From Christiangramia portivictoriae DSM 23547 (GTDB lineage: Bacteria > Bacteroidota > Bacteroidia > Flavobacteriales > Flavobacteriaceae), in the NCBI RefSeq assembly GCF_000423045.1, contig NZ_AUHF01000001.1, positions 806,001 to 870,000 on the forward strand: a stretch of DNA of 64,000 nucleotides. Direction: 5' to 3'. A model generated the notes under the pieces. That model saw only the letters and a list, made by a program, of their open reading frames with translations. It was not told where the DNA came from and did not search any database. Each line of letters begins with the position of its first letter. Within the stretch, counting starts at the first letter, position 1. The position numbers and the translations under genes were made by a program. Below are positions 2,431 to 63,907 of the stretch, piece after piece.

Positions 2431-2459
2431 TCTCGTAAGTTCATTGTTTACTAACATTC

Positions 2460-2559
2460 GTTATCAAGAAAGGTTGAGGGATTAGACCCTGTGAAACCTT
2501 AGCAACCCTCCTTTGGAGAAGGTGCTACATTCTACCTGGTTCAGTCCCGGATAGATAAC
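2460..2559 (+). ncRNA. SAM-I (S-box) riboswitch
   Basis: The closing stem P1 is GTTATC (2460-2465) with GATAAC (2554-2559). Inside lies the S-box core: AAG-A-AAGGTTGAGGGATTAGACCCT, then GTGAAACCTTAGCAACC, then a P3 stem-loop with GAAGGTGCTACATTC. The class binds S-adenosylmethionine and lowers expression of methionine genes. Position fits: it precedes a methionine synthase. I find no strong intrinsic terminator between P1 and the start at 2613, only a T-run at about 2582-2588, so control may act on translation or through a weak terminator. Confidence 0.93.
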
Positions 2560-2612
2560 AATCAGAATTCTTTCCAGTCTTCTTTTTTTGATATCGTATT
2601 ATTTGAATAATC

Positions 2613-9517: not shown

Positions 9518-10424
9518 TTCAGGAATTTTTAAAATTTGGGCGTTTCCCTTCGGGCCGGGCTTTCCGCTCTATCTTTTAACCCGAAGCTTCGGCAGGCTCA
9601 GCCTCGTGCTAAAAGGATGCCGCTGCAATCCCTAACGCGAAGAATTCTAAATCAATATAGTTTAGATATTAGCGAGCATTTTCCGGTTAATTTCAGAAGC
9701 CAAATCTTTTGAATAATTCGGGCATCTTTAAAATCTGGGCGTTTCCCTTCGGGCCGGGCTTTCCGCTGTATCTTTTAAACCGAAAGTTCGGCAGGCTCAG
9801 CCTCGTGTTAAAAGGATGCCGCTGCAATCCCTAACGCGAAGAATTCCAAATCAATATAGTTTAGATATTAACGAGCATTTTCCGAATAATTTCAGAAGAG
9901 ACAGTTTTTGAATGATTCAGGAATTAAGATCTGGGCGTTTTCCTTCGGGCCGGGGTTTCCGCTGTATCTTTTAACCCCAAACTTTGGCAGGCTCAGCTTC
10001 GTGTTAAAAGGATGCCGCTGCAATCCGTAACGCGAAGAATTCCAAATCAATATAGTTTAGATATTAGCGAGCATTTTCCGAAGAATTTCAGAAGAGACAA
10101 TTTTTTGAGAATTGTTATGATCTGGGCGTTTCCCTTCGGGCCGGGCTTTCCGCTGTATCTTTGAACCCGAAGCTTCGGCAGGCTCAGCTTCATGTTAAAA
10201 GGATGCCGCTGCAATCCCTAACGCGAAGAATTCTGATTCAATATAGTTTAGATATTAACGAGCATTTTCCGAATAATTTCAGAAGAGACAATTTTATGAG
10301 AATCTTTCAGTTTTGGGCGTTTCCCTTCGGGCCGGGCTTTCCGCTGTATCTTTTAACACAAAGCTTCGGCTGGCTCAGCCTCGTGTTAAAAGGATGCCGC
10401 TGCAGTCCCTAACGTGAAGAATTC
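9506..10424 (+). repeat. Tandem array of five ~195-bp units with a palindromic element
   Basis: The motif GGGCGTTTCCCTTCGGGCCG recurs at 9538, 9737, 9933, 10124 and 10315, giving spacings of 199, 196, 191 and 191 bases. Each unit has a ~100-bp GC-rich element (GGGCGTT ... CTTCGGCAGGCTCAG ... GGATGCCGCTGCAATCCCTAACGC) plus an AT-rich linker (GAATTC, then AATATAGTTTAGATATTA and AGCGAGCATTTTCCG). The fifth copy stops after the GAATTC. An open frame at 10161-10412 inside it is an artefact of the repeat. Confidence 0.92.
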
Positions 10425-10483: not shown

Positions 10484-11401
10484 TTATTTCTGAGTAAGTT
10501 CAGCAAAAAGAGTTTCCAGGTTTTTGGTCTTTTGATTAAGCTGTAACGTTTTGAGTCCGTTATCATGAGCGAAATCAAATACAGCCGGACGCATATCTTT
10601 TTTGGAGTCGAATACCAGCTCATAAGTAAAACCGCCCGTATTCTTTGCAGAGATCATTCCGGGAATCTTTTGGAGGGCAACTTCTTCAATGCGGTAATCG
10701 AATTCCACAAAGATCACCTGTTCTTTCTCATTCCGAAGATCTTTGAGGTATTTATCGGCAACAACCTTTCCTTTGTTGATGATGATCACCCTATCACAGA
10801 TCGCTTCCACCTCACGCATGATATGAGTAGAAAGAAATACCGTTTTTCCCTGCTTACCATCCTGGCCATCTTTACCAATAGAACTAATCAGGGATCTTAT
10901 CTCAATCAATTGATTAGGATCGAGTCCCGTAGTTGGTTCATCGAGGATCAAAACCTCCGGATCATGCAGCAGTGCAGCCGCAAGACCAACACGTTGCCGG
11001 TATCCTTTCGATAATTGTTCTATTCTTTTATTCGCTTCAGGCGTAAGCCCCGTAAGTTTGATAACTTCTTCGATCCTTTTTTTCCCTGCAGAAAATATGG
11101 ATGCCTGGAACTGCAAATATTCCCGAACATACATTTCAGTATACAAAGGATTGTGCTCCGGCAGAAATCCAATACTATGCTGTAGATCTGCCAGCTGTTT
11201 CTCCAGTGTGAAATCATTGATCCTGGCTTCCCCGTGATCTGCAGAAAGATAGCCGGTAAGGATTTTCATCAAGGTGGATTTTCCTGCACCATTGGGTCCA
11301 AGAAACCCAACAATCTCCCCGCGGCCAATTTCAAAGCTTATATTATCCAGCGCCTGCTGATTTCCAAAGCTTTTTGAGATGTTCTTTACGTATATAGACA
11401 T
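10484..11401 (-). CDS. gldA: GldA, gliding-motility ABC transporter ATPase
   Basis: 305 residues, a complete ABC ATPase: Walker A 'GPNGAGKST' near 37-45, signature 'LSKGYRQRV' near 133, Walker B 'VLILDEPTTGLD' near 153, and the H-loop in 'FLSTHIMREVE'. A C-terminal ~80-residue domain follows, as in GldA. In flavobacteria GldA works with GldF and GldG and is associated with gliding. Those partners are not in this window. A perfect minus-strand -7 box lies 10 bases upstream. Confidence 0.85.
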   Translation of the reverse strand: MSIYVKNISKSFGNQQALDNISFEIGRGEIVGFLGPNGAGKSTLMKILTGYLSADHGEARINDFTLEKQLADLQHSIGFLPEHNPLYTEMYVREYLQFQASIFSAGKKRIEEVIKLTGLTPEANKRIEQLSKGYRQRVGLAAALLHDPEVLILDEPTTGLDPNQLIEIRSLISSIGKDGQDGKQGKTVFLSTHIMREVEAICDRVIIINKGKVVADKYLKDLRNEKEQVIFVEFDYRIEEVALQKIPGMISAKNTGGFTYELVFDSKKDMRPAVFDFAHDNGLKTLQLNQKTKNLETLFAELTQK

Positions 11402-11419: not shown

Positions 11420-11554
11420 GGAATAAATCTTCAGAGAACTGACTGATTATCTTTCAATGTTAATAGTCAATTTTCTAGTATTAAATCGTATTCTGTAAAT
11501 TTTTCACATCAATTTTCAGAATATGGGAAAAGTTCCAATTTGAAGCAGGTTTAA

Positions 11555-11585
11555 TTTTGAGTCTTGAATATTAGTACTAATTTAG
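11555..11585 (+). promoter_or_regulatory. Likely promoter of the aromatic operon leader
   Basis: TTTTG at 11555-11559 and TAATTTAG (seven of eight matches) at 11578-11585 are 18 bases apart. Transcription would begin near 11591, shortly before the leader ORF at 11605. Confidence 0.5.
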
Positions 11586-11604
11586 TAATTCATAATTATT
11601 GTAA

Positions 11605-11682
11605 ATGACAAGCTTAATTAACTGGAACGCATTCTATTATTTTTATTTCTATACCAGGAATAGAATCGGGAATGCTATATGA
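11605..11682 (+). CDS. Phe/Tyr-rich leader peptide of the pheA operon
   Basis: A 25-codon ORF (ATG 11605, TGA 11680) with seven consecutive aromatic codons, F-Y-Y-F-Y-F-Y, at 11632-11652, plus one Trp at codon 7. It is followed by an RNA that can fold in two ways and by a terminator just before a prephenate dehydratase gene. This is the classic layout of ribosome-mediated attenuation: when Phe-tRNA or Tyr-tRNA is scarce the ribosome stalls on these codons and the terminator cannot form. The aromatic run is directly visible; the mechanism is inferred from position and pairing. Confidence 0.8.
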   Translation: MTSLINWNAFYYFYFYTRNRIGNAI

Positions 11683-11737
11683 TTAAGTAAGCTAAAATTA
11701 TATAAAAGTCTCGATCTTAGATCGGGACTTTTTTTTT
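11631..11737 (+). promoter_or_regulatory. Attenuator RNA with alternative pairings and terminator
   Basis: Region 1, ATTCTATT (11631-11638, within the aromatic codons), pairs with region 2, AATAGAAT (11659-11666). Region 2's ATCGGGA (11665-11671) can instead pair with TCTCGAT (11709-11715), the 5' arm of the terminator. The terminator itself is AGTCTCGATC (11707-11716), loop TTA, GATCGGGACT (11720-11729), then nine T (11729-11737). The pheA ATG follows at 11746. So 1:2 plus 3:4 gives termination, and 2:3 gives read-through. Confidence 0.8.
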
Positions 11738-11745
11738 GGAAAAAA

Positions 11746-12570
11746 ATGAGAAAAGTCGGAATTCAGGGTATTAAAGGGTCATTTCATCACCTCGTGGTGA
11801 TGGATTATTTTGGAGAGCGAACTGCTGTGGCGCAACATATGTCATTTCAGGATCTTTCTATAGCGCTGGCTTCCGGTGAAACTACCGAGGCAGTGATGGC
11901 GATCGAGAACAGTATCGCTGGTTCAATTCTTCCCAATTATGCTTTGATCAACGAATACAAGCTTAAAGTCATTGGTGAACACTACACCCCGGTACACATG
12001 AATCTGATGGCGGTAAAGGGTCAGAAAATCCAGGATATCAAGAAAGTGTATTCTCATCCCATGGCCTTATTGCAGTGTAAGGAATTTTTTAAAAAACATC
12101 CGCACATTAAGTTGATCGAAGAAGCAGATACGGCCGAGGCAGCCCGAAGAATAGCTTCGGAAGAGAAACTGAAAGTTGCAGCGGTAGCAAGTGCTGCTGC
12201 GGCGAATATGTATGGTCTCGAAATCATGGCTTCAGGCATTCATACCATCAAATCCAACACCACGAGATTCCTGGTTCTGGGAACAAAAGAACCAAAACCG
12301 AATGGTGAAATTCTGGATAAAGCATCCCTGAAATTTGATTTGAAGAGTGATCGAGGAAGCCTGGTTTCAGTCCTTAATATTCTACGGGATTCTTATTTAG
12401 ATCTAACGAAAATACAGTCTTTGCCCATTATAGATGAACCATGGAAATATTCATTTTTTATAGATGTGATCTTTGAGAAAAGAGATGATTTTGATCGTGC
12501 GATGGACGTATTAAAGTTAATGACCGAAGACCTTAATATTTTAGGAATTTACAAAAGCAGATTGTCATGA
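11746..12570 (+). CDS. pheA: Prephenate dehydratase
   Basis: 274 residues: a periplasmic-binding-protein-like catalytic domain ending in the conserved 'SNTTRFLVLG' near residue 170, then an ACT regulatory domain (about 190-274, 'RGSLVSVLNILRDSYLDLTKIQSLP') that binds phenylalanine in this family. It converts prephenate to phenylpyruvate. It is monofunctional: chorismate mutase is supplied by the fourth gene of the operon. The stop overlaps the next start by 4 bases (ATGA). Confidence 0.92.
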   Translation: MRKVGIQGIKGSFHHLVVMDYFGERTAVAQHMSFQDLSIALASGETTEAVMAIENSIAGSILPNYALINEYKLKVIGEHYTPVHMNLMAVKGQKIQDIKKVYSHPMALLQCKEFFKKHPHIKLIEEADTAEAARRIASEEKLKVAAVASAAAANMYGLEIMASGIHTIKSNTTRFLVLGTKEPKPNGEILDKASLKFDLKSDRGSLVSVLNILRDSYLDLTKIQSLPIIDEPWKYSFFIDVIFEKRDDFDRAMDVLKLMTEDLNILGIYKSRLS

Positions 12571-13712
12571 AGACAGCAAAAAGACTGGAAAGCATACAGG
12601 AATATTATTTTTCCAAAAAACTAAGGGAAGTAGCAGCTTTGCGGGAACAGGGACAACCGGTGATTAATCTTGGAATTGGAAGTCCGGACCTTGCGCCACC
12701 ACAGCAGGTTGTAGATGCGATGCAAAATGGACTCGATCATTCCAAAGCGCATCAATACCAGCCCTATAAAGGCATACCCGCCTTAAGAAATGCCATGACC
12801 GGCTTTTATGCTCGTTTTTTTAATGTAGAGCTTGATGCTGAAAATGAAATCCTTCCGCTTATGGGAAGTAAGGAAGGAATTATGCATATTTCTATGGCCT
12901 TTGTTAATAAAGGAGACATAATACTGGTTCCGGATCCAGGTTATCCTACCTATACTTCAGTTTCAGGATTATTACAGGCCAAAGTTCGTAAGTATGAGCT
13001 GGATGAGTCGCAAAACTGGTTGCCAGATCTGGAAGCTTTGGAGCAACAGGGACTTGAGAATGTAAAAATCATGTGGGTGAATTATCCGCATATGCCTACC
13101 GGTACCAGCGCGACCATAGGTATGTTTGAAAAACTGACCGCATTTGCTGAAAAACACAAAATTCTTGTAGTCAATGATAATCCCTATAGTTTTATTCAGA
13201 ATGCAGAACCATTGAGTATTCTTAATACCGATAAAAGGAGTGAATATGTGATGGAGCTCAATTCGCTCAGCAAGAGTTTCAATATGGCTGGCTGGAGAGT
13301 TGGAATGCTCGCCGGAAGCGCAAAAAATATCGAAGCAGTTCTAAAAGTAAAATCCAATATGGATAGCGGGATGTTCTATCCTTTACAGGCTGGTGCAGTA
13401 CAGGCGCTTCAGCTCGAAGAGGAATGGTTTGTAAATTTGAATAAAATTTACACCTCCAGAAAAAAGAAGGTGATGGAACTGGTAGAAGCCTTGAATTGTA
13501 AGGCGGCACCAGGGCAATCAGGACTTTTTATCTGGGCGAAAGCACCTGCCGGTCAAAGTGCAGAAAGCCTGGTAGATGAATTATTATATCAAAAAGATCT
13601 GTTCGTGACACCTGGTTTTATCTTTGGGGAACAGGGCAGGAATTATGTTCGTTTTTCTCTTTGTGCTACGGAAGAAATGATCGATGAAGCTTTAAAAAGA
13701 ATTAGATCATGA
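12567..13712 (+). CDS. Class I/II aminotransferase, probably aromatic
   Basis: 381 residues of a fold-type I PLP aminotransferase. Seen are 'VINLGIGSPDLAPP' near residue 32, 'VPDPGYPTY' with the ring-stacking Tyr, and the PLP lysine in 'SLSKSFNMAGWRVG' near residue 235. Between prephenate dehydratase and prephenate dehydrogenase, the obvious role is transamination of phenylpyruvate and 4-hydroxyphenylpyruvate to Phe and Tyr. A substrate such as LL-diaminopimelate precursor is not excluded by sequence alone. It overlaps both neighbours by 4 bases. Confidence 0.88.
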   Translation: MKTAKRLESIQEYYFSKKLREVAALREQGQPVINLGIGSPDLAPPQQVVDAMQNGLDHSKAHQYQPYKGIPALRNAMTGFYARFFNVELDAENEILPLMGSKEGIMHISMAFVNKGDIILVPDPGYPTYTSVSGLLQAKVRKYELDESQNWLPDLEALEQQGLENVKIMWVNYPHMPTGTSATIGMFEKLTAFAEKHKILVVNDNPYSFIQNAEPLSILNTDKRSEYVMELNSLSKSFNMAGWRVGMLAGSAKNIEAVLKVKSNMDSGMFYPLQAGAVQALQLEEEWFVNLNKIYTSRKKKVMELVEALNCKAAPGQSGLFIWAKAPAGQSAESLVDELLYQKDLFVTPGFIFGEQGRNYVRFSLCATEEMIDEALKRIRS

Positions 13713-14593
13713 AAGTATATATAGTGGGAGTTGGATTGATTGGCGGCAGTTTTGCACTTGATCTGAAAGAGAGCATGCCAGGAATTGAAATTGCCGGAAT
13801 AGATGGAAATGAGGATCACCTCAAGCAGGCGCTGGAATTGGGTTTTATTGACAGCATGTCTTCCATGGAGGCTATTGATGAAGCCGACCTGGTGTATCTT
13901 GCTATTCCAGTTGATGCGAGCATTCAGGTGCTTCCAGAAATTCTAAACAGCGTAAAAGATGATTGCGTGGTGATAGATGCAGGTTCCACCAAAGAAAATA
14001 TCTGCAGGGTAGTGGAGAATCACAGGAAAAGAAGAAATTTTCTGGCTGCTCACCCCATTGCCGGAACTGAGTTTTCTGGACCACAGGCTGCGATTCACGG
14101 ATTGTTCAGAAATAAGACCAATATCATCTGTGAAGTAGAAAAAACGGCTTTTAAGCTTCAGGAAAAAGCACTGGAGGTATTTCAGAAGATAGGGATGAGG
14201 ATACGTTATATGGATGCCCGGTCACACGACAGGCACATAGCGTATGTTTCTCACCTATCGCATATCAGCTCTTTTATGCTGGGGAAGACCGTGCTGGAAA
14301 AGGAAAAGAACGAGCGGGATATATTTGATCTTGCCGGTAGTGGTTTCGCTTCTACGGTACGACTCGCGAAAAGTTCTCCGGCGATGTGGACGCCTATATT
14401 TAACCAGAATAAAAAAAATGTCCTGGAAACGCTGGATGAGTATATTCTGAATCTTCAGAATTTCAGAAAATTGATGCAGGAAGACAACTTCGATCAACTA
14501 TACCAGGAAATGGATCGAACCAATCATATTAAAGAAGTATTAAACGGAATAAATAAGAACGAAGAATTAAAATTAGAGGAGAATGGAAAATAA
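13709..14593 (+). CDS. tyrA: Prephenate dehydrogenase
   Basis: 294 residues. The N-terminal Rossmann motif 'GVGLIGGSFALDLKE' (residues 6-20) binds NAD(P). The motif 'HPIAGTEFSGP' near 113 and 'SHLSHISSFML' near 182 are typical of TyrA. It oxidatively decarboxylates prephenate to 4-hydroxyphenylpyruvate. There is no C-terminal ACT domain, so feedback control by Tyr would have to come from elsewhere, such as the leader. It overlaps the next gene by 11 bases. Confidence 0.92.
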   Translation: MKVYIVGVGLIGGSFALDLKESMPGIEIAGIDGNEDHLKQALELGFIDSMSSMEAIDEADLVYLAIPVDASIQVLPEILNSVKDDCVVIDAGSTKENICRVVENHRKRRNFLAAHPIAGTEFSGPQAAIHGLFRNKTNIICEVEKTAFKLQEKALEVFQKIGMRIRYMDARSHDRHIAYVSHLSHISSFMLGKTVLEKEKNERDIFDLAGSGFASTVRLAKSSPAMWTPIFNQNKKNVLETLDEYILNLQNFRKLMQEDNFDQLYQEMDRTNHIKEVLNGINKNEELKLEENGK

Positions 14594-15665
14594 AAAAGAA
14601 CTCAGAGGCTGGTTAGACAATTTCAACCTTTCTCACCCATTGGTGATTGCCGGCCCGTGCAGTGCAGAAACCGAAGAGCAGGTACTAACGATCGCTCACC
14701 AGTTAAAAGACAGTGACGCCACTGTTTTACGTGCAGGAATCTGGAAACCAAGAACGCGCCCAGGAAATTTTGAAGGGGTTGGAGCCTTGGGATTGAAGTG
14801 GCTTCAGAAGGCGAAAGAAGAAACCGGAATGTTAACAACGACTGAAGTTGCAAACCCAAACCATGTGGACCTTGCATTAAAACATGATGTTGATATTCTC
14901 TGGATTGGAGCCCGAACTACAGTTTCTCCCTTTATCGTACAGGAGATCGCAGATGCTTTAAAAGGAACAGATAAGATCGTGCTGGTCAAGAATCCTGTGA
15001 ATCCAGATCTGTCTTTATGGCTTGGAGCTGTAGAGCGTTTACATACCGCTGATATTAACAATCTTGGGGTAATACATCGTGGATTCTCTGCTTACGAAAA
15101 GACAAAATACCGTAACAACCCGGAGTGGCAGATTCCTATTGAATTACAGAATAAATTTCCAGATCTTCCTTTGATCCTGGATCCTTCGCATATCGCAGGA
15201 AGAAGAGATATCATCTTCGATCTTTGCCAGACCGCTTTAGATCTTAATTATGACGGGATCATGGTGGAAACTCACCATACTCCAGACAAAGCATGGAGTG
15301 ATGCGGCTCAGCAAATTACGCCTGCTGCCTTAATACAGATGATGGAAGATCTAAAGGTGAGAAAAGAGATTTCCGCAAGCCAGGATTTTCAGAATAAACT
15401 AACGGCTTTGCGTTCCAAGATTGATATTACCGATAGTCAGATTCTAGAGATTTTGTCCAAGCGTATGAAAATTTCCGAAGAAATAGGACAGGTAAAGAAA
15501 GACCAGAACGTAGCCATTCTGCAAACTAAAAGATGGAACGAGATCCTTGGGAAAATGGTACTGGAAGGTGAAGATAAAGGCCTGAGTGAAGAATTCGTTT
15601 TAAGATTATTCAAAGCCATTCACCAGGAGTCCATCAACCACCAGCAAAAAATCCTTGATGCTTAA
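14583..15665 (+). CDS. Bifunctional DAHP synthase / chorismate mutase
   Basis: 360 residues. Residues ~1-255 form a DAHP synthase of the short AroA-Ibeta type ('PLVIAGPCSAETEEQV', 'LRAGIWKPRTRPGNFEG', 'LPLILDPSHIAG'). Residues ~270-355 are an AroQ-type chorismate mutase ('ALRSKIDITDSQILEILSKR'). So the operon's last gene encodes both the entry step to the shikimate pathway and the committed step to prephenate, and a single attenuator can control both. Confidence 0.93.
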   Translation: MENKKELRGWLDNFNLSHPLVIAGPCSAETEEQVLTIAHQLKDSDATVLRAGIWKPRTRPGNFEGVGALGLKWLQKAKEETGMLTTTEVANPNHVDLALKHDVDILWIGARTTVSPFIVQEIADALKGTDKIVLVKNPVNPDLSLWLGAVERLHTADINNLGVIHRGFSAYEKTKYRNNPEWQIPIELQNKFPDLPLILDPSHIAGRRDIIFDLCQTALDLNYDGIMVETHHTPDKAWSDAAQQITPAALIQMMEDLKVRKEISASQDFQNKLTALRSKIDITDSQILEILSKRMKISEEIGQVKKDQNVAILQTKRWNEILGKMVLEGEDKGLSEEFVLRLFKAIHQESINHQQKILDA

Positions 15666-63577: not shown

Positions 63578-63847
63578 TTATTTTCTTAGTCCAAGTTCCT
63601 TGATGATCGCACGATATCTCATGATATCCTTCTTCATTAAGTAATCAAGTAAGCTTCTTCTTTTACCAACAAGCTTTACCAGTGAACGCTCTGAGTTAAA
63701 ATCCTTACGGTTTTTCTTCAGGTGCTCAGAAAGGTGAGCAATTCTGTAAGTAAATAATGCGATTTGTCCTTCTGCTGAACCGGTATCGGTTTTCGATTTC
63801 CCGTGTTTTTCGAAGATCTCTTCTTTTTTCTCTTTTGCTAGATACAT
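63578..63847 (-). CDS. rpsO: 30S ribosomal protein S15
   Basis: 89 residues. Normal S15: 'MYLAKEKKEEIFEKHGKSKTDTGSAEGQIALFTYRI', then 'HLKKNRKDFNSERSLVKLVGKRRSLLDYLMKKD'. Binds the 16S rRNA central domain early in assembly. Often autoregulated at its own leader, and the leader here contains a good hairpin. Confidence 0.97.
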   Translation of the reverse strand: MYLAKEKKEEIFEKHGKSKTDTGSAEGQIALFTYRIAHLSEHLKKNRKDFNSERSLVKLVGKRRSLLDYLMKKDIMRYRAIIKELGLRK

Positions 63848-63877
63848 TCCAATATTATTTAAATGATTTTTATGTAT

Positions 63878-63894
63878 TGACAGCTTTTCTGTCA
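63878..63894 (-). promoter_or_regulatory. rpsO leader hairpin
   Basis: TGACAG (63878-63883), loop CTTTT on the plus strand, CTGTCA (63889-63894). In the rpsO transcript it lies six bases after the -7 box, so within the first bases of the mRNA. Possible S15 binding site or promoter-proximal stem. Confidence 0.45.
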
Positions 63895-63899
63895 GGCGG

Positions 63900-63907
63900 C
63901 AAAGATA
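63900..63907 (-). promoter_or_regulatory. rpsO -7 promoter box (TATCTTTG)
   Basis: Plus-strand CAAAGATA reads TATCTTTG on the minus strand, a perfect match 53 bases before the rpsO ATG. Confidence 0.6.

Follow-up and report, generated by a model that had tools for sequence, protein, structure and literature searches.

A probable ribosome-mediated transcription attenuator with Phe, Tyr and Trp codons before the pheA operon of Christiangramia portivictoriae and its relatives

Ribosome-mediated attenuation of transcription is textbook knowledge. In the case of E. coli pheL-pheA (RF01859), a product-rich leader peptide, the 1:2, 2:3 and 3:4 pairing logic and a terminator directly 5' of pheA form a switch whose leader logic and terminator position are like those of the element described here; pheL carries Phe codons without Tyr and the E. 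coli pheA is a chorismate mutase fusion, whereas our locus has a four-gene operon with a DAHP synthase behind Phe, Tyr and, in many relatives, Trp codons. The E. coli trp attenuator, which serves another amino acid and another operon, is laid out alike: control codons come first, then a strand 2 close to the stop of the leader, then the antiterminator and last the terminator. No homology with it is claimed. Attenuators in the Bacteroidetes/Chlorobi were reportedly listed in a 2004 comparative study by Vitreschak and colleagues. As summarized in PMC11802643, the E. coli pheL-pheA attenuator is regulated by Phe-tRNA. The same source describes the aroR-aroF system of Corynebacterium glutamicum (Neshat et al. 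2014), which resembles ours in its Phe-Tyr-Phe leader, its DAHP synthase operon and the part given to ribosome stalling; it belongs to another phylum and responds to Phe and not to Tyr, whereas the present leader has seven aromatic codons in a row plus Trp. That case is a caution against inferring sensing from codons alone.

Strong clues for leader-peptide attenuation before amino-acid operons were reported in 2021 for Flavobacterium psychrophilum, together with a structured element 5' of pheA that occurs in other Flavobacteriaceae genera without Rfam hits (PMC9723704). That element, from the same family and before the same gene, is very probably the one analysed here; the main text of that paper names pheA once and gives neither a sequence or codons nor an antiterminator or the amino acids to which it responds. 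For Bacteroides thetaiotaomicron, short ORFs that recall attenuation leaders are mentioned (PMC7366714), the accessible part of PMC2864571 lists a pheA motif for Actinobacteria only, and PMC4833913 offers a general treatment of leader genes near structural genes and cites a 2010 comparative study by Lopatovskaya and colleagues. Our literature search, with subscription papers mostly outside it, found no description of a Phe/Tyr/Trp leader before pheA in this phylum. The switch is of a known kind, with an unusual mix of control codons; the added Trp codon and the reach of the element in this group are what call for attention. Kept at one gene in most sampled genera of the family, the element extends textbook attenuation to bacteria for which little was found in print. 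Such an attenuator would need tight coupling of ribosome and polymerase in bacteria whose ribosomes are independent of Shine-Dalgarno signals and whose start signals are unlike them (PMC9723704).

The window, a stretch of 64,000 nucleotides of C. portivictoriae DSM 23547 (NZ_AUHF01000001.1, positions 806,001 to 870,000, forward strand), holds the features collected in Table 1. The start of pheA lies 344 bases from a divergent ABC-transporter gene on the minus strand (10484-11401); since that gene is divergent, the terminator before pheA has no gene of its own to end, and a constitutive terminator of the upstream gene was ruled out. The four operon genes overlap one another in the order pheA, aminotransferase, tyrA, DAHP synthase-chorismate mutase. 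The initial annotation had named a pheA-tyrA-DAHP synthase operon, and these genes are indeed present, with the aminotransferase gene, which it had passed over, sitting between pheA and tyrA. Its 25-codon ORF with seven aromatic codons in a row was borne out; the run, which it had described as alternating, proved not to be strictly so, and Trp codon W7 had been missed next to the Phe/Tyr run. When codons were tabulated for 20 of the 24 congeners, namely those with 25-codon leaders, the Trp codon was invariant in all 20, and the variable columns within the genus numbered 8, 9 and 12 of 24 by codon position, a weakly coding-like pattern.

Table 1. Features of the pheA leader region and operon, in window coordinates
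Feature	Position	Strand	Basis
Promoter-like motif, TTG (11557-11559), 18 nt, TAATTTAG (11578-11585)	11557..11585	+	motif search, alignment of 24 congeners
Leader ORF, 25 sense codons, MTSLINWNAFYYFYFYTRNRIGNAI, stop TGA (11680-11682)	11605..11682	+	ORF reading and relatives
Trp codon W7, three codons 5' of the Phe/Tyr run	11623..11625	+	invariant in congeners with 25-codon leaders
Strand 1 (GCATTCTATT), overlaps first control codons	11629..11638	+	fold prediction
Control codons F-Y-Y-F-Y-F-Y, codons 10-16, seven consecutive aromatic	11632..11652	+	
Strand 2 (ATCGGGA), antiterminator 5' arm within end of leader ORF	11665..11671	+	
A+U-rich hairpin in antiterminator loop (11676-11684 with 11696-11704), 5' arm contains leader stop	11676..11704	+	
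Intrinsic terminator, 13-bp stem (11704-11732), 3-nt loop, U run	11704..11737	+	
Strand 3 (TCTCGAT), common to antiterminator and terminator	11709..11715	+	
Strand 4 (ATCGGGA), terminator 3' arm	11722..11728	+	
pheA, prephenate dehydratase	11746..12570	+	PF00800
Class I/II aminotransferase	12567..13712	+	PF00155
tyrA, prephenate dehydrogenase	13709..14593	+	PF02153/PF20463; NF006307 above its cut-off
DAHP synthase/chorismate mutase fusion	14583..15665	+	PF00793+PF01817

The 7-mer ATCGGGA occurs twice, at the end of the leader ORF and in the 3' arm of the terminator, and both copies pair with TCTCGAT, strand 2 therefore imitating strand 4. The proposed 2:3 pairing holds, with one G-U pair, and the terminator, whose stem is followed by a U run, was confirmed to end eight bases before the ATG of pheA. 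As for the 1:2 stem of the initial annotation, ATTCTATT (11631-11638) is the exact complement of AATAGAAT (11659-11666), but the minimum-energy fold favours a larger hairpin akin to it, in which 11629-11635 pairs with 11669-11675 around an inner helix of 11641-11650 and 11656-11665, and which occupies four of the seven bases of strand 2. A 156-nt stretch folds at -37.9 kcal/mol (z -5.2), with none of 200 shuffles equally good. For the full RNA the terminator fold is predicted at -18.7 and the antiterminator fold at -12.2 kcal/mol, so the antiterminator must win by forming first. The hairpin in the antiterminator loop was considered as a strong conserved feature and rejected, its energy across loci (-2.6 kcal/mol, against -1.8 for shuffled spacers) being only a small excess; hairpins of at least five pairs are found in this loop at 89 of 94 loci and in 91% of shuffles.

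Upstream of the leader, the promoter-like motif suggests a transcription start near 11590, 15 nt 5' of the leader ATG, from which a terminated RNA of about 148 nt would be expected. The motif is similar to the sigma-A signal of flavobacteria, in which the -7 box, TAnnTTTG, spans -12 to -5 (PMC9723704). A loose form of the motif, TTG-N16-20-TAnnTT[TA]G, turns up in a comparable position in 62 of 93 genera (0.8% of shuffles) and, with the same script, in 16 of the 24 congeners; the loosening, which allows A in the last TTTG, was chosen after the congeners were seen, and the strict TAnnTTTG is present in 12 of the 93. An exact TAnnTTTG at 11551-11558 was rejected as the promoter, its position not being kept in most congeners and the TTTTG there fitting a -33 element. 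Because the promoter-like motif stands upstream of the leader and recurs in relatives, transcription starting 3' of the leader is unlikely.

From the parts of the element, their conservation, their spacing and their predicted folding, we infer with high confidence that the element before pheA is a ribosome-mediated transcription attenuator, and its working, from transcription and stalling to the regulatory effect and the answer to the single amino acids, would be as follows. RNA polymerase would begin near 11590, with a ribosome trailing it on the leader ORF. When charged Phe- or Tyr-tRNA, and probably Trp-tRNA too, is scarce, the ribosome would stall on codons 7-16 and occupy strand 1, leaving strand 2 free when strand 3 emerges; the 2:3 antiterminator would form and polymerase would read through to pheA, the aminotransferase gene, tyrA and the DAHP synthase gene. 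With all tRNAs charged, the ribosome would reach the stop codon and cover strand 2, allowing 3:4 pairing and termination at about 11737. If the leader is left untranslated, 1:2 pairing would favour termination again in this window.

The initial annotation would have been refuted by a lack of conservation of the aromatic run or the stems in relatives, and both are kept. Genomes of the family were drawn evenly, one per genus; 102 of the 120, counting the own genome, had a PheA match. We compared the pheA regions of 100 other genera and added a 101st genus afterwards. Loci were scored for an ATG leader with Phe/Tyr in at least five of eight codons, followed by a terminator within 110 nt of its stop. 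This combination is present in 95 of the 100 genera and in none of 200 shuffles; it is absent from all 275 regions 5' of the aminotransferase, tyrA and DAHP synthase genes of the same genomes, and it appears in six of 200 random windows of the same loci, all six catching the leader itself. Taken singly, an ORF with at least six Phe/Tyr in eight codons occurs in 81 of 100 genera (11 of 1000 shuffles) and a terminator of -8 kcal/mol or lower in 96 of 100 (1 of 100 shuffles). All 24 congeners and 75 of 80 loci from GTDB records also carry the combination; the three sets overlap, some genomes standing in more than one.

Inspection of the misses brings the count to 99 of 101 genera, the added genus (L289) included. 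At L168 a contig end cuts the locus, with the aromatic run and the terminator visible; at L207 and L208 the leader and terminator lie farther upstream than the 400 nt scanned, and the L208 leader, counted by eye, has Phe/Tyr in four of eight codons and so falls below the rule; at L229 and L247 the attenuator is absent on inspection. Among the GTDB-record misses, contig ends truncate L044 and L073, L066 is apparently cut inside the terminator by the pheA start chosen, and L095 and L097, both Gelidibacter, have repeats before pheA, the terminator of L097 being visible 5' of them. The repeat, of about 110 bases (TGAGTTCGAAGAACGAAATAAAATGAACTAGTTGAACTAATCCCGCC...GGCGGGAT), lies between attenuator and pheA in L208, in several copies, and in L097, and a repeat of the L208 type is also found upstream of pheA in L095; a stretch spanning the L208 copies (L288) gave no Rfam match at gathering score. 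The genome of L229 (G046) has pheA and the DAHP synthase gene (L286) about 950 kb apart on one contig, both without an attenuator, as would be expected if the leader goes with the joint operon.

Pairing and spacing were analysed at 94 of 101 loci (the window locus and the 100 genera), from which L168, L207, L208, L229 and L247 had dropped out on the criteria and L216 and L231 by hand; in the last two the terminator finder had picked the wrong hairpin, the leader and, by eye, a suitable terminator being present. Strand 2 pairs with its own strand 3 at a mean of -10.95 kcal/mol, against -8.08 (sd 0.21) with the strand 3 of other loci (0 of 5000 permutations; 93 rows, window locus left out), a permutation that takes no account of relatedness. 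On a PheA tree of 88 loci, for which the window locus and five rows with an off-motif strand 3 were set aside, the state of strand 3 (C or U at one position) agrees with the preference of strand 2 in 84, and each strand shows seven changes, none in opposite directions; tree-based covariation offers fewer than six informative independent pairs (sign test p 0.5), too small a number for proof. A table of pair types was discarded as circular, since it takes in paired bases alone. Most telling is the geometry: in 84 of 93 loci the distance from the last Phe/Tyr codon to the start of strand 2 is 8-11 nt (11% of shuffled strand-2 regions), which would put that start at about the front edge of a ribosome stalled at the codon, a spacing that fits stalling; in 90 of 93, half of strand 2 or more would lie under a ribosome that has reached the stop codon.

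Stalls were simulated with assumed footprints, on the premise that RNA becomes available for pairing 9 nt past the A-site codon. A ribosome stalled at the first, middle or last Phe/Tyr codon leaves the antiterminator in the predicted nascent fold at 94 of 94 loci, one stalled at Trp does so at 66 of 66, and one at the stop codon gives the terminator at 94 of 94; as the loci were preselected for leader and terminator, and the definition of strand 2 was itself its being the best partner of strand 3, the simulation speaks for consistency and is not an independent proof. Strand 2 is at least half sequestered at 91 of 93 loci, compared with 55 when strand 1 is shuffled. With no ribosome, strand 1 of the window locus is predicted to hold strand 2, the antiterminator being absent from the nascent fold; in the same simulation the antiterminator still appears at 61 of 94 loci, and protection by strand 1, or fail-safe termination, is therefore not general. 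By sequence, spacing and predicted folding, the antiterminator is exclusive with the terminator, would be free on a stall and would be masked with a ribosome at the stop.

Two explanations that do without a sensing ribosome have to be weighed against this attenuator. The terminator hairpin might obey another signal, a small-molecule riboswitch or an RNA-binding protein, with the ORF being incidental; the 5' region is conserved and highly structured, and such elements are common. No Rfam family reaches its gathering score over the leader-terminator stretch, however, the best weak match being the proteobacterial Phe_leader, RF01859 (26.9 bits, where the cut-off is 55; E 0.023 for 501 bases), and across genera, by eye, only the run, strands 2-3-4 and their spacing are kept. 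A riboswitch or other known RNA family was rejected for want of a match at gathering score over this stretch, and we consider control by another signal very improbable; for the same want of an Rfam family, Rfam-based annotation would miss the element. Harder still to credit is a peptide that acts in trans, the hairpin being then a constitutive partial terminator. All 95 leaders counted (the 94-locus set with L216 and L231 returned) have an ORF that begins with ATG, as such a peptide would have it, the ORF picker having favoured ATG on tied scores so that this uniformity is partly by choice; yet the peptide sequence outside the aromatic run differs widely between genera, the length varies from 18 codons upward, and the C-terminal codons overlap strand 2 in most loci.

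What the attenuator senses is a finer matter, since the same switch could answer to Phe only, or mainly, with the Tyr and Trp codons as tolerated bystanders, as in the aroR leader of C. glutamicum (PMC11802643). TAY is one change away from TTY, Trp is lacking in 28 of the 95 leaders, and across the 88-locus PheA tree its presence has switched at least 15 times, so the Trp codon is dispensable. On the other hand, all 95 leaders, which were selected for Phe/Tyr content and not for Tyr alone, have Phe and at least two Tyr codons (means 5.4 Phe and 3.6 Tyr); an in-frame Trp codon, at a distance of two to four codons from the first Phe/Tyr in the dense stretch, is found in 67 of 95, against 22% of shuffles of the same leaders, and the two other frames contain one in 6 and in 12 of 95; and the operon makes Tyr and feeds Trp. 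We judge a sensor of Phe only, or mainly, rather unlikely, and the sensing of both Phe and Tyr by one leader, as first suggested by the mixed run, plausible.

The DAHP synthase genes offer a possible reason for the Trp codon. The own genome has two DAHP_synth_1 matches, one in the operon and the other a KDO8P synthase, and no type II DAHP synthase was found in it, the operon enzyme being the only DAHP synthase found. Among 80 of the 100 genera, two such matches occur in 75, one in four and three in one, the second match having been identified as KDO8P synthase in the own genome only, and no type II enzyme was found in these 80. A DAHP synthase match lies on the same stretch as pheA at 99 of 102 loci; of the remaining three, L001 and L244 are on stretches too short and the genome of L229 has its DAHP synthase elsewhere. 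Since the Trp codon is common and no second DAHP synthase was found beside that of the operon, Phe, Tyr and Trp may all be sensed by the leader. Tentatively, and with a confidence a little short of an even balance, we propose that one leader senses Phe, Tyr and Trp and gates the only DAHP synthase of the cell, a single attenuator thus controlling entry to the aromatic pathway across the Flavobacteriaceae and many other Bacteroidia. For a pathway with a single DAHP synthase the logic would be simple, a lone sensor that carries codons for two or three of the end products taking the place of several isozymes and repressors. Ten loci gave tblastn matches (1e-8) for pheA and DAHP synthase and none for the aminotransferase and tyrA, and the Trp codon is present in all ten, a pattern that is compatible with sensing of all three amino acids and is no proof of it. 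Eight genera in which pheA and DAHP synthase alone were detected together (L254-L260 and L289) share a distinct leader of the TYFNFWFFYF type, with Trp in 8 of 8.

Beyond the family, we examined the best 30 of 46 matches of a draw from the order and the best 30 of 31 from the class, window locus included. Among the matches listed, the leader-terminator combination is present at 37 of 56 new loci; with the ten loci of the own family removed, it is found at 27 of the 46 outside the family and missing at 19, its share being 9 of 19 in the order outside the own family and 18 of 27 in the rest of the class. The order accounts for ten misses, of which eight fall in genomes of about 0.6 Mb, probably those of insect symbionts. 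A draw from the phylum gave a PheA match in 128 of 148 genomes, and its best 13 new loci (L273-L285), judged from the best ORF and terminator and not by the combined rule, show leader and terminator in 12, L276 being the one without; three of these twelve (L277-L279) are labelled as outside the class. None of 14 hand-picked weaker matches outside the class (L290-L303) has the leader, nor has either of two hand-picked loci (L304, L305) from f5, a family of the same order. Within the class, the element thus seems to be old.

Other RNA elements and codon runs were recorded alongside. No Trp leader was seen 5' of trpE in the own genome, where the scanned stretch was possibly too short or wrongly oriented, and a short pattern for His-codon runs gave 46 matches there against 15 for the reversed control. 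In the window, a SAM riboswitch (2458-2561, plus strand, 81.6 bits) lies 51 bases 5' of an ORF at 2613 that reads as a methionine-synthase homocysteine-binding-like part; farther 3', two ORFs resemble, on reading of their sequences, a cobalamin-dependent methionine synthase (3683) and a methylenetetrahydrofolate reductase (6660). On the minus strand there are two Flavo-1 RNA motifs (9549-9643 and 9748-9842, about 200 bases from start to start) and a flavobacterial S15 ribosomal protein leader (63845-63907, 78.7 bits).
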